This document shows positions 5,399 to 8,874 of a stretch of 64,000 bases of DNA, in pieces. The position numbers and the translations under genes are program-made. Source of the stretch: Desulfogranum japonicum DSM 18378. Its GTDB lineage: Bacteria > Desulfobacterota > Desulfobulbia > Desulfobulbales > Desulfobulbaceae. The notes below the pieces were generated by a model that saw only the letters and a list, made by a program, of their open reading frames with translations, made no database searches and was not told where the DNA came from. Each line of letters begins with the position of its first letter. Within the stretch, counting starts at the first letter, position 1. Location of the stretch: assembly GCF_000429945.1 (NCBI RefSeq), contig NZ_AUCV01000008.1, positions 124,001 to 188,000 of the forward strand, in the 5' to 3' direction.

Positions 5399-5599
5399 TA
5401 GTGCCTGTCTATACATGCTTTTTCGTTAGCTCGTTACTCGCTTACTTACCCAATTATTGCGTTATGCTCAAAATTCTATTCTCGAATGTAAGCGAAGACT
5501 CCGATACCAGGTATATGTTTATGATAAAAGATATCGCATGTCTCGGATTCTACGCTTACCCAAAGGTGAACATAAATCCTCATGTATGGATAGACACTA
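5399..5599. repeat. MITE-like element A1 with imperfect terminal inverted repeats
   Basis: The left end TAGTGCCTGTCTATACATG (5399-5417) and the reverse complement of the right end CATGTATGGATAGACACTA (5581-5599) agree at 16 of 19 positions. A nested inverted repeat pairs GTAAGCGAAGACTCCGA with TCGGATTCTACGCTTAC. The interior shares blocks such as TATGCTCAAAAT, AGACTCCGATA and TATCGCAT, in the same order, with the element at 15439-15614. The right end stops one base before the stop codon of the reverse-strand gene at 5601. No transposase or long frame is present. Confidence 0.75.
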
Positions 5600-5600
5600 T

Positions 5601-6527
5601 CTATCGTCGACCTGACCCACCACTGCCGCCAGAATTGCCGCCAGATCCTCCTGCACCGCCACCGGAGCCACCGGAGCCACCTGAACTACCTGAGCCATTT
5701 GAGTTATTGCCTGATCCACTGGAATCACCAGAGCCACTTGAGCTATTGCCCGCTCCTCCAGAATTACCAGAACCGCTTCCAGCACTTCGGCCGGAGATTC
5801 CTGTTTCCCTGCCGGTTGAAATATTAGATGAAATACTACGTGCAGCGTTTTCTGCAGAACCATAGCGGGCCTGGCGCTCAAAAGCATTTCTGACCTGCCT
5901 CATTTCAGCAGCCCCAAAACCACAGTTGATTGCATTTTCTGTCATCTCACCAATTGTCTCTGAGCGTACAGAGCGATAGGCCATCGCACGTGCTGTAGTC
6001 CATACCTGAATAGTTAGCTTATCCGCATCAGCCTTATTCATTGTACTGGTTCTTGTCTGCAGTGCGGCGACTATCCTACTGGAATCCTCAGTCTTAAGCC
6101 CCGCAGCATAGGCGTTGGCCACAAGGTCACAAAGAGTCTCCTGTATTGTCGTATTATCAGAGAGATTCCGGGCTGTTTTGTAGGCATTTGCATACCTACT
6201 TCGCACCGTTTCAGCCGCAACAACTATTCTGTCTTGATCAATATTCTTGGCAATGCCCTCATAGATCTTATTTGTAACAGGTTCCATTGGTAGCTTTTCT
6301 TTTTTTGCCAGTGAAACAATAGTACGCACTTGGTTAATGTTTTTTTGGCTGAACCTGTATTCCTTCATTGCCTGCAGAAGATTCGCCTCTTCAATGCCGT
6401 CTTTAGAAGAGGGCATTGAAACACCAGAATTCTTAAAAGTATTCACTTGTGCTACGGCCTGATCGGCAAGACTAAAAAAAATAGAGGCAAGAGTTATCCC
6501 TATGAGAATCATAGATCTGTTTTTCAT
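5601..6527 (-). CDS. Secreted protein with Gly/Ser-rich low-complexity tail, function unknown
   Basis: I do not recognise this 308-residue protein. The chosen start is the ATG at 6527, because it follows GGGAG and gives a clean signal peptide (MKNRSMILIGITLASIF... ending near AVAQ). A longer frame reaches 6599 but has no signal-like start. Residues 30-230 are helical, with few cysteines. The last 75 or so residues are almost only Gly, Ser and Asn, with GSG/GGS repeats ending in GRR. The gene lies downstream of the sigma factor, CBM48 protein and lipoprotein on the same strand, 155 bases after the lipoprotein, so it may belong to that regulon. The stop codon abuts repeat A1. It could be a surface or matrix protein. 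Confidence 0.7.
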   Translation of the reverse strand: MKNRSMILIGITLASIFFSLADQAVAQVNTFKNSGVSMPSSKDGIEEANLLQAMKEYRFSQKNINQVRTIVSLAKKEKLPMEPVTNKIYEGIAKNIDQDRIVVAAETVRSRYANAYKTARNLSDNTTIQETLCDLVANAYAAGLKTEDSSRIVAALQTRTSTMNKADADKLTIQVWTTARAMAYRSVRSETIGEMTENAINCGFGAAEMRQVRNAFERQARYGSAENAARSISSNISTGRETGISGRSAGSGSGNSGGAGNSSSGSGDSSGSGNNSNGSGSSGGSGGSGGGAGGSGGNSGGSGGSGRR

Positions 6528-6682
6528 GCGATTATCTCTCCCGTTAAAGCTGACGGTTACCAATGCAACGGGCATGGTTGCTTTTTGCAGCCTTGCCACA
6601 ACACAAACAATTGTTTGCCTTTATTGTTGGATTCATGATTTGTATGATGATTTTCATATATAACAATTGCTTACTGTTAAGG

Positions 6683-7030
6683 TTACCTTTCAGGAGCGAA
6701 TAAACAGTTTCTCGCTCCGAAATCATCGACAACGGTCAGTTCGCATGCAGGAATTTCTGGTACCTTATCGATAAGATAGAAGTAAGAAAAGTTACTTCTT
6801 TTAGGTACCGTAATTCGCCACATGCCGTGGTCAATATGTGCGGCAGGGTGTAATGTGAAGTGGTCGATGGACGAGGCAAAAAGGACTTCTCTTGCATCCG
6901 GATTCTGGTAATACAGCGCGATAGAATCCGATTGGATGATAAAGTAGTGCCGCTTTGAACATCCGGTAGTAATAAAAATCAGGAAGATTGCAGCAGCCAG
7001 AAGCGTTTTTCGTTGAAAGAACATAACCAT
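6683..7030 (-). CDS. Putative lipoprotein with CBM48-like early-set domain
   Basis: A 115-residue protein with a hydrophobic N-terminus ending in the lipobox-like ITTGC, so Cys24 is the likely lipid anchor. The -3 residue is Thr, which is weak. The mature part shows the same order of features as the C-terminal domain of the gene just upstream: a GMWRITVP strand, a YFYLIDK strand and a terminal DDFGARN before the last strand. I infer a second small CBM48/early-set domain. Cys96 and Cys109 flank that last turn and could form a disulphide in the periplasm. It starts two bases after the stop of the CBM48 gene, so the two are translationally coupled. Confidence 0.65.
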   Translation of the reverse strand: MVMFFQRKTLLAAAIFLIFITTGCSKRHYFIIQSDSIALYYQNPDAREVLFASSIDHFTLHPAAHIDHGMWRITVPKRSNFSYFYLIDKVPEIPACELTVVDDFGARNCLFAPER

Positions 7031-7032
7031 TT

Positions 7033-7632
7033 TTATGTCTCCACCTTTATGACAGAATTTATTGTACCGAAATCATCTGGCTCACGTGCTGCTACGGTTG
7101 GATCGGGTAAAAGCATCTTACCGTCCACTACGAAAGAATATTTATGTTCCCCATGGACTACAGGCAGGGTAATTTCCCAGTAATTACCAATGCCAGTGGG
7201 TAACAGAGCCACCTTTTTCCAGTTAGTAAAGCTGCCTATTATCTCAACCTTCACCGCCTCCTGATAGAGAACAAAACGATAGTTAACCGCTTTATTCTGA
7301 ATAGGGGTGACGTTTACGCCTGCCATTTCTTCATGGGGACCTTTCTCTGTTCCTGTAAAGATAAAAAATACTATAACCATAGCCACTGCAAAGCTAGCTA
7401 TTGGCTGCCACCAAGAGGAGAGAGCTTTCTGTAGGGAAAACTGCACTGCCTGAGAAGGAATCGGTCCTGGCATCCATTTTTCAGGTGCTCCGTGCAGAAG
7501 TTTTTCCTGCTCTAAAAATGACTTGGTTTCGCATGCAAATTGATGACTGTCGTGTACCTTATCCACGAACGTTATCTTCTCATCAAGATTAAGTTCGTCA
7601 TCAATGAATTGAGAAATTAAATAGTCTTCCAT
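7033..7632 (-). CDS. Membrane protein with anti-sigma-like head and CBM48/AMPK glycogen-binding-type domain
   Basis: The 199 residues split into three parts. Residues 1-50 (LISQFIDDELNLDEKITFVD...) resemble the helical head of anti-sigma factors but lack the His and Cys zinc ligands. Residues 76-94 form one membrane span. Residues 118-199 form an early-set/CBM48-type domain: VKVEIIGSFTNWKK, YWEITLPVVHGEHKYSFVVD and DPDDFG-like EPDDFGTINS. CBM48 domains bind alpha-glucans in AMPK and branching enzymes. The gene lies seven bases after the ECF sigma gene, the usual place for an anti-sigma factor. I infer a membrane anti-sigma factor that senses something through a periplasmic early-set domain; the ligand is unknown. 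Confidence 0.75.
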   Translation of the reverse strand: MEDYLISQFIDDELNLDEKITFVDKVHDSHQFACETKSFLEQEKLLHGAPEKWMPGPIPSQAVQFSLQKALSSWWQPIASFAVAMVIVFFIFTGTEKGPHEEMAGVNVTPIQNKAVNYRFVLYQEAVKVEIIGSFTNWKKVALLPTGIGNYWEITLPVVHGEHKYSFVVDGKMLLPDPTVAAREPDDFGTINSVIKVET

Positions 7633-7639
7633 GGCAGAT

Positions 7640-8104
7640 TCAGGTTAAAAGTTGTCTTAGTTTTTTTCTTGCCCTGTGTACTTTTACTTTAATATTTGTT
7701 TCACTGCACTGGTGGATGGCCGCAATATCAGCATAGCTTAGACCGCTGCTAACAACGAGGGCTAGGATATCTCTTTCTTCCGGTGATAACTGTTTCATTG
7801 CATCCAGAACACGTCTCGCTTCCTCTTTTTCAATATACTTCTTCTCCTGATCTGACGCGGGCTCAACAGGTTCTACATCTAAAGACGCGTCATGTTTTTG
7901 CAGACGTATATAATCGTGGAAAAGGTTTCGGCCAATGGTGAAGAGCAAGGCCAAACTCAGTTCCCGGTTTTTATATTTTTCCAGATAACGGGTAAAACTT
8001 TCCTGAACCAAATCATTTGCTACATGGGAATTGCACGATTTCCGTAGCAAAAAGTGATAAAGTCGCCCGCCATTTTCTAAATAGAATGCCCGAAATTTAT
8101 CCAT
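7640..8104 (-). CDS. RNA polymerase sigma factor, ECF subfamily
   Basis: A small sigma-70 factor of 154 residues. Region 2 spans residues 5-65 with ANDLVQESFTRYLEKY and the core-binding LLFTIGRNLFHDYIR. Region 4 spans residues 95-150 with LSPEERDILALVVSSGLSYADIAAI and the helix-turn-helix SETNIKVKVHRARKKLR. It is the first gene of a reverse-strand run with the CBM48 membrane protein, the lipoprotein and perhaps the Gly/Ser-tailed protein. ECF factors usually drive their own operon; the 278-bp divergent spacer to the Gly-rich gene at 8383 is the natural place for target promoters. I could not define a shared promoter motif by eye. Confidence 0.9.
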   Translation of the reverse strand: MDKFRAFYLENGGRLYHFLLRKSCNSHVANDLVQESFTRYLEKYKNRELSLALLFTIGRNLFHDYIRLQKHDASLDVEPVEPASDQEKKYIEKEEARRVLDAMKQLSPEERDILALVVSSGLSYADIAAIHQCSETNIKVKVHRARKKLRQLLT

Positions 8105-8382
8105 AATACTATGCTAACGGAAAAAGAGAGTGAAGGTTTCATAAAAAATAAGGTTTATTGTAAGTAGTATCTTGTGTTTCACAACAAGATGTTGTCTAAC
8201 TTGCTGTTTTAACATTGAATACCGAGGTTTTTTTGGAAATTTGATAATCAAATGTAAAATATTCTGTAACCTTCTTTTTTCTTCTACGTTTACCTCATGA
8301 AATACGGCAGATTTACAACCATTTCTCTGAACATGGTGTTTGGGGAATTATCTGTTCAAGCCACGATTAAAGGAGTGTACAC

Positions 8383-8874
8383 ATGAAGAAAAAGATCAGC
8401 ACATTGTTTGTTGTCTCTTGCGCCACCCTCATGCTGACAACTGCGACATATGCAGGTCAAGGAAAATCGGCCGGTTATGGTGATGGTAGCGGAGATTCAA
8501 CCGGAGATTATGGTCCAGGCGATTGTGATCTTACATCAATCATGAAAGATTATCCTGGTTTCCTTCTTGCCGGTAATGGGCATGGTCCAGGTGATGGAAC
8601 AGGATCTGGTGACCAAAGCGAGGCAAACGGGCCTGGAGATTGTGATACTGCTTTGATCATAAAATTGGATTCCAGCCCGCTACTTGCCAAAGGTGGCGGA
8701 GGTGGCAATGGAAATGGAGGCGGAGGGAACGGTAACGGTAACGGTGGCGGTGGAGGCAATGCCGGGTCAGGGGATAACGGTGGCAACGGACCTGGTGACG
8801 GAACAGGAACGGGTGACGGCCCCTTGGACGGAACGGGGAATGGACCTGGAACCGGCGACTGTCTCAACACCTGA
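8383..8874 (+). CDS. Secreted Gly-rich repeat protein with GPGDC motifs, function unknown
   Basis: A 163-residue secreted protein with signal peptide MKKKISTLFVVSCATLMLTT ending at ATYAG near residue 25. AAAGGAGTG lies just before the ATG. After the signal there are two related units: residues 44-64 (GPGDCD..SIMK.....LLAG) and residues 83-103 (GPGDCD..LIIK.....LLAK). A long Gly/Asn tract follows at 104-135, then GPGDGTG and GTGDG repeats. The only mature cysteines are 48, 87 and 160, each in a GDC triplet. The Asp/Gly repeats suggest metal binding or a flexible surface protein. It is transcribed away from the ECF gene and may be a target of that sigma factor. I know no characterised homologue. 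Confidence 0.75.
   Translation: MKKKISTLFVVSCATLMLTTATYAGQGKSAGYGDGSGDSTGDYGPGDCDLTSIMKDYPGFLLAGNGHGPGDGTGSGDQSEANGPGDCDTALIIKLDSSPLLAKGGGGGNGNGGGGNGNGNGGGGGNAGSGDNGGNGPGDGTGTGDGPLDGTGNGPGTGDCLNT

Follow-up and report, generated by a model that had tools for sequence, protein, structure and literature searches.

Extracytoplasmic function (ECF) σ factors that work with zinc-less class I anti-σ factors (ASDI), such as RseA and RskA, are proteins of regions σ2 and σ4 encoded beside or overlapping a gene for a membrane protein with a short cytosolic head, and their promoters are autoregulated and carry an AAC box at –35 and a CGT box at –10. Here we describe a locus with this architecture, its autoregulated promoter being predicted, from a 64,000-nucleotide stretch of the Desulfogranum japonicum DSM 18378 genome (contig NZ_AUCV01000008.1, positions 124,001 to 188,000; hereafter the window). 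It differs from the ECF/ASDI systems by a candidate periplasmic sensor of the AMPK-beta/CBM48 type on the membrane protein P0002, by a related lipoprotein (P0003), and by what appears to be a dedicated regulon of Gly-rich secreted proteins.

A carbohydrate-binding-type domain outside the membrane on an anti-σ factor is also found in SigI/RsgI of Clostridium thermocellum, where the σ factor type and the promoter are different, the RsgI domains are CBM3, PA14 and GH10, no lipoprotein is present and the regulon is that of the cellulosome (PMC4711584). Membership of P0002 in the RsgI group was rejected, as no RsgI family occurred for its 48 family members among the best 25 of 29 Pfam families at E values up to 0.5. 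The C-terminal domain of P0002 belongs by sequence to the same family as the glycogen-binding domain of AMPK beta (PF16561)/CBM48, and the model of P0003 has the same fold; unlike the AMPK beta domain, the domains described here are bacterial and periplasmic and have partly lost the glycan-contact residues. In some loci with the promoter motif described below, a CCP_MauG gene accompanies that of a small secreted protein, an arrangement that resembles MbnH/MauG systems with small secreted partners. They differ from these systems by scores below the cut-offs, by small proteins without a family match and by the lack of such a link in the window genome. Membership in the MbnH and MNIO/bufferin groups was rejected because no supporting match was obtained, and a search of the bufferin literature gave nothing on the present system. 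In the literature searched, with the main ECF classification outside that search, we found no published description of this layout, in agreement with a preliminary description of the window; the σ factor family may already carry a group number in that classification.

The genes encoding the σ factor (P0001), P0002, P0003 and a secreted helical protein (P0004) form a minus-strand operon, and a gene for a Gly-rich secreted protein (P0005) diverges from it on the plus strand. All five genes are found where the preliminary description had placed them (Table 1). We consider it likely that they constitute a self-contained ECF σ/anti-σ switch for envelope or secreted proteins. The gene order, the conservation of the locus, the folds of the sensor domains and the common promoter motif are established by sequence, structure prediction and promoter statistics.

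Proteins of the cassette and conservation of the locus

P0001 contains regions σ2 and σ4 and neither σ3 nor σ1.1, as is characteristic of ECF σ factors. It matches Sigma70_r4_2 (E = 1.2e-14), Sigma70_r2 (E = 6.7e-7) and Sigma70_r4 above the Pfam cut-offs and TIGR02937 with 74.1 bits (cut-off 42.9). As expected at the sequence level for an autoregulated ECF σ factor, a predicted ECF-type promoter precedes its own gene.

P0002 matches AMPK1_CBM (PF16561) with an E value of 1.7e-11 (44.6 bits, gathering threshold 26.8) and CBM_48 with 2.2e-5, also above the cut-off, which bears out the periplasmic CBM48-type domain proposed earlier for the membrane protein. PF16561 is matched by all 48 members of the family, and the closest sequence matches of P0002 in the PDB are AMPK beta subunits. 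The head had been described as lacking zinc ligands, and this extends to the whole family: the 48 members show neither a conserved Cys nor the class I pattern Hx3Cx2C, an optional rather than a defining feature of these anti-σ factors. Since about 44% of the known class I anti-σ domains are non-zinc (PMC7406223), the missing ligands are no argument against an anti-σ role. A further feature of class I anti-σ factors, a gene adjoining that of the cognate ECF σ factor, is present in 61 of 61 loci by profile search.

By hhalign, the family of the lipoprotein and the C-terminal domain of the P0002 family are related (97%). The AF2 model of P0003 (pLDDT 90.7) has AMPK-beta as its top Foldseek match (8.8e-5) and aligns with AMPK-beta CBM structures with a VIA Z of 12.5 and a root-mean-square deviation of 1.9 over 86 aligned residues; CBM48 structures match as well. 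Profile comparison, model and fold search thus agree with the earlier view of the lipoprotein as a second CBM48-type domain. Its Cys pair is invariant in 47 of 47 lipoproteins. Position +2 of these proteins is A, S, T, G or V and never D, which by the E. coli rule suggests a location in the outer membrane. In one locus, a second CBM domain of the lipoprotein type (L023:6981-7337) no longer has a lipobox; its signal peptide resembles that of the neighbouring helical gene, and it has its own promoter motif.

To examine conservation, contigs of GTDB genomes were scanned with the anti-σ protein as query, and the presence of genes in the resulting 61 loci was judged by profiles built from seven of them. 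Most of these loci are labelled Desulfobulbaceae, Desulfocapsa, Desulfobacterales, Desulfuromonadaceae/Desulfuromusa or Deferribacterales. The lipoprotein gene is present in 53 of the 61 loci, so that two related CBM48-like domains are encoded side by side, and the gene for the helical protein in 51; several absences are due to contig ends. The preliminary description had named a neighbourhood without counterpart in any relative as one of the findings that would speak against it, and this objection falls away. The constant gene order across the 61 loci rules out chance adjacency, and two opposite-strand open reading frames, at 5401-5865 (plus) and 8550-8870 (minus), were dismissed as shadows.

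Among 57 relatives, membrane protein and lipoprotein co-occur in seven genomes (the window genome included), always side by side. Of 395 genomes sampled from the phylum, 18 match the lipoprotein profile, and the anti-σ profile has matches in 24 of 51 genomes from the phylum that includes Denitrovibrio (L062). Four newly read loci of the Deferribacterota share the order Gly-rich DGTG protein, σ factor, anti-σ factor, lipoprotein and helical protein, the DGTG gene heading the operon. The module is conserved in at least two phyla, Desulfobacterota and Deferribacterota. Three genomes carry a second copy of the switch, and the σ and anti-σ paralogues of these copies cluster together.

A promoter motif common to the σ factor and secreted-protein genes

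Comparison of upstream regions revealed an ECF promoter motif of two boxes at one fixed distance, GTAAC(N)(A/C/T)T-N13-CGTT. With the 13-bp spacer, it occurs 91 times in 62 loci (680 kb, both strands), compared with 0-3 times at each other spacer from 8 to 20; as the motif was derived from some of the counted loci, this count is not independent of them, but the same stretches of DNA served for the spacer and permutation controls. Sixty letter-permuted motifs gave a mean of 0.65 and a maximum of four matches in these 680 kb. With a slightly looser pattern, 45 of 62 loci have the motif before the σ factor gene, 26 of the 52 loci with a helical gene have it before that gene, and 15 of 17 have it before the annotated divergent Gly-rich (GDG) gene.

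On the scale of whole genomes, the strict pattern occurs 20 times in 17 genomes with the cassette, compared with a single match for the reversed pattern, and any one genome contains 0-3 matches, mostly at these loci. Four of seven cassette-bearing genomes contain it, compared with one of 50 other relatives (Fisher p 4e-4). In the 5.8 Mb window genome, the only match to TGTAACNTT-N13-CGTT is the site in front of the divergent Gly-rich gene. Wider patterns matched at C19, C33, C40 and C44 of this genome, and the two sites inspected, C40 and C19, revealed no convincing target gene.

Because this common ECF promoter precedes the σ factor, helical and DGTG genes, the σ factor is linked to both kinds of secreted protein and probably controls its own operon together with them. 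In many loci, the boxes end 11 bases before the start codon of the σ factor gene (8104-8141 in the window), and its mRNA is therefore probably almost leaderless.

Table 1. Genes and predicted promoters of the ECF σ factor locus, in coordinates of the window
Feature	Position	Strand	Remarks
ECF σ factor P0001	7640..8104	minus	154 aa; σ2 and σ4 only; assigned by Pfam, TIGR02937 and adjacency
Anti-σ-like protein P0002	7033..7632	minus	199 aa; head ~1-50, span ~76-94, periplasmic AMPK-beta/CBM48 domain 118-198
Lipoprotein P0003, second CBM48/AMPK-beta-like domain	6683..7030	minus	115 aa; lipobox TTGC; invariant Cys pair C96, C109
Secreted helical protein P0004	5601..6527	minus	signal peptide, α-helical repeat solenoid ~42-238, disordered Gly/Ser-rich tail
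Secreted Gly-rich DGTG-type protein P0005	8383..8874	plus	signal peptide, GPGDGTG repeats (from sequence)
Predicted ECF promoter, σ factor operon	8116..8141	minus	TGAAACCTTCACTCTCTTTTTCCGTT; GAAAC variant; ends 11 nt before σ factor start codon
Predicted ECF promoter, divergent Gly-rich gene	8265..8290	plus	TGTAACCTTCTTTTTTCTTCTACGTT
Probable ECF promoter, helical/Gly-tail gene	6662..6686	minus	GTAACCTTAACAGTAAGCAATTGTT; –10 TGTT for CGTT; overlaps lipoprotein stop codon

Secreted proteins and other genes behind the motif

The start of P0004 most likely lies at 6527 rather than at 6599, since the signal peptide fits there. The preliminary description had called this protein secreted and Gly-rich; it is secreted and has a Gly-rich part, but only the last ~68 residues are rich in Gly and Ser, and the first ~240 form a helical-repeat domain. 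In the AF2 model, ten helices make up a core with a pLDDT of ~97, compared with ~50 in the tail, and 39 of 41 members of the family have tails with at least 30% Gly. No clear natural fold match was obtained for the helical domain, the best matches being designed helical repeats with a VIA Z below 10, and for this reason we do not read a function from the fold.

P0005 is the sole match to its own family in the window genome, and other loci likewise have genes of its type downstream of the motif. Conserved signal peptides, tails and promoters rule out that the Gly-rich reading frames are low-complexity artefacts. Paralogous loci encode a divergent secreted protein with repeats (L058:4716-5405, L065:4409-5332 and, on the minus strand, L052:1-490); those of L058 and L052 have a unit of about DGSCLPAVEIVTPTLAxDQIRDKKQLK, in a layout related to that of the DGTG proteins.

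Away from the locus, the motif precedes genes for further DGTG or Gln-rich secreted proteins and for MauG/MbnH-like di-haem enzymes (L089, L100, L090, L117). Other off-locus targets are a Cys-rich family (L110), another small family (L115) and an orphan Gly-rich gene (L121). Members of the Cys-rich family also stand behind the motif near the cassette (L030:4010-4669, L078:4784-5497 and L034), and the two that were tested have no Pfam match. Five loci (L034, L036, L044, L045, L053) have genes for proteins of the DUF2202 family at most 6 kb from the cassette, with PF09968 confirmed for L034 and L044. In one genome (L113 and L035), a gene for a helical-repeat protein is found at a great distance from the cassette; a copy of the motif follows it, in a stretch with masked bases.

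Proposed regulation and its alternatives

By analogy to the ECF/ASDI systems, the zinc-less head of P0002 would hold the σ factor inactive at the inner membrane, while a ligand in the envelope or at the surface would be sensed by the periplasmic AMPK-beta-like domain of P0002 and its counterpart on the lipoprotein, whether the two touch each other or bind a glycan or protein. A signal would then free the σ factor, which would amplify its own operon and cause the helical/Gly-tail and DGTG proteins to be made and exported, probably to act at the cell surface. The preliminary description had proposed a ligand controlling the secretion of matrix proteins. Of this, control of expression is supported by the common ECF promoter and control of secretion is not, and a role of the Gly-rich proteins as matrix proteins is a guess.

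Several observations weigh against the proposed switch. In 17 of the 62 loci, the motif was not found before the σ factor gene with the pattern used, and two of the three copies in the window carry one substitution each, the third being exact. The copies in L058 and L065 lack the lipoprotein and helical genes but keep the divergent repeat protein and the promoters; because of these copies, lipoprotein and helical protein appear dispensable for the core switch. The co-segregation of σ and anti-σ paralogues would also be expected from the co-inheritance of neighbouring genes. The head of P0002 resembles zf-HC2 weakly, in 13 of 48 members and with a best E value of 1.2e-3, as would be the case if it were no anti-σ domain at all, the σ factor being controlled otherwise and P0002 merely a co-transcribed envelope protein. 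We regard this as very improbable in view of the invariant adjacency in 61 loci, a cytosolic head of suitable size before the single span, and the co-segregating pairs.

As to the signal, the CBM48-type domains could bind an α-glucan or another surface polysaccharide and thereby release the σ factor. Their family is glycogen- and starch-binding, and of the AMPK beta1 positions that we take to contact the glycan (W100, K126, W133, L146, T148, N150), the equivalents of W100 and N150, mapped by the AMPK alignment, are kept in 48 of 48 members of the P0002 family, with L146 changed to Phe. Most or all of the 48 members have other residues at the equivalents of K126, W133 and T148, however, W100 has no equivalent in the lipoprotein, and none of the genes seen behind the motif was glycan-active. 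Despite the precedent of the CBM-bearing RsgI of C. thermocellum (PMC4711584), we therefore think a glycan sensor rather unlikely. Because the binding site is only partly kept, a glycan signal is less than assured; it is possible, and a protein, perhaps the lipoprotein encoded next door, is no less likely as the partner. The domains would then be modules for binding proteins, pairing with one another or with the exported proteins, helical or Gly-rich, and would report stress of the envelope or of secretion, like RseB and lipoprotein co-regulators of other ECF and envelope systems. The adjacent genes for two related domains, the invariant Cys pair and the fact that the genes controlled by the motif mostly encode exported proteins themselves favour such feedback, while the copies without lipoprotein and helical protein argue against it; it is a serious candidate, if one that still falls short of probable. 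Finally, the regulon could include di-haem enzymes that oxidize DGTG-type proteins so that these could, for instance, bind metal or be cross-linked. In the four genomes mentioned above, the motif precedes a small secreted protein gene followed by a CCP_MauG gene, or a CCP_MauG gene alone, and seven loci have MauG-like genes no more than 6 kb away from the cassette. The linked enzymes match the CCP_MauG domain of Pfam but score far below the NCBIfam equivalog cut-offs (TIGR04039, 128 bits vs 363), and such a promoter is missing upstream of the closest MauG-like gene of the window genome (L119, 62% identity), which lies behind a gene for a response regulator. Such a modification seems unlikely to us.

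Returning to the ECF switch, its fullest form would be an envelope module, undescribed so far and present in at least two phyla, in which paired AMPK-beta-like domains on anti-σ factor and lipoprotein gate an ECF σ factor for low-complexity secreted proteins (DGTG repeats, or a helical solenoid with a Gly/Ser tail), some of them possibly modified by MauG-like enzymes. We put this complete picture forward only tentatively. With the switch, two unexplained families of low-complexity secreted proteins in Desulfobacterota and Deferribacterota would gain a regulator, a promoter and a candidate sensor, and an AMPK-beta-type domain would take the sensor's place in an ECF switch. With so sharp a promoter, the regulon can be listed for any genome, which brings tests of the system's function within reach in hosts already in culture, for example Desulfogranum marinum, Desulfobulbus rhabdoformis and Desulfopila sp. 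IMCC35008.

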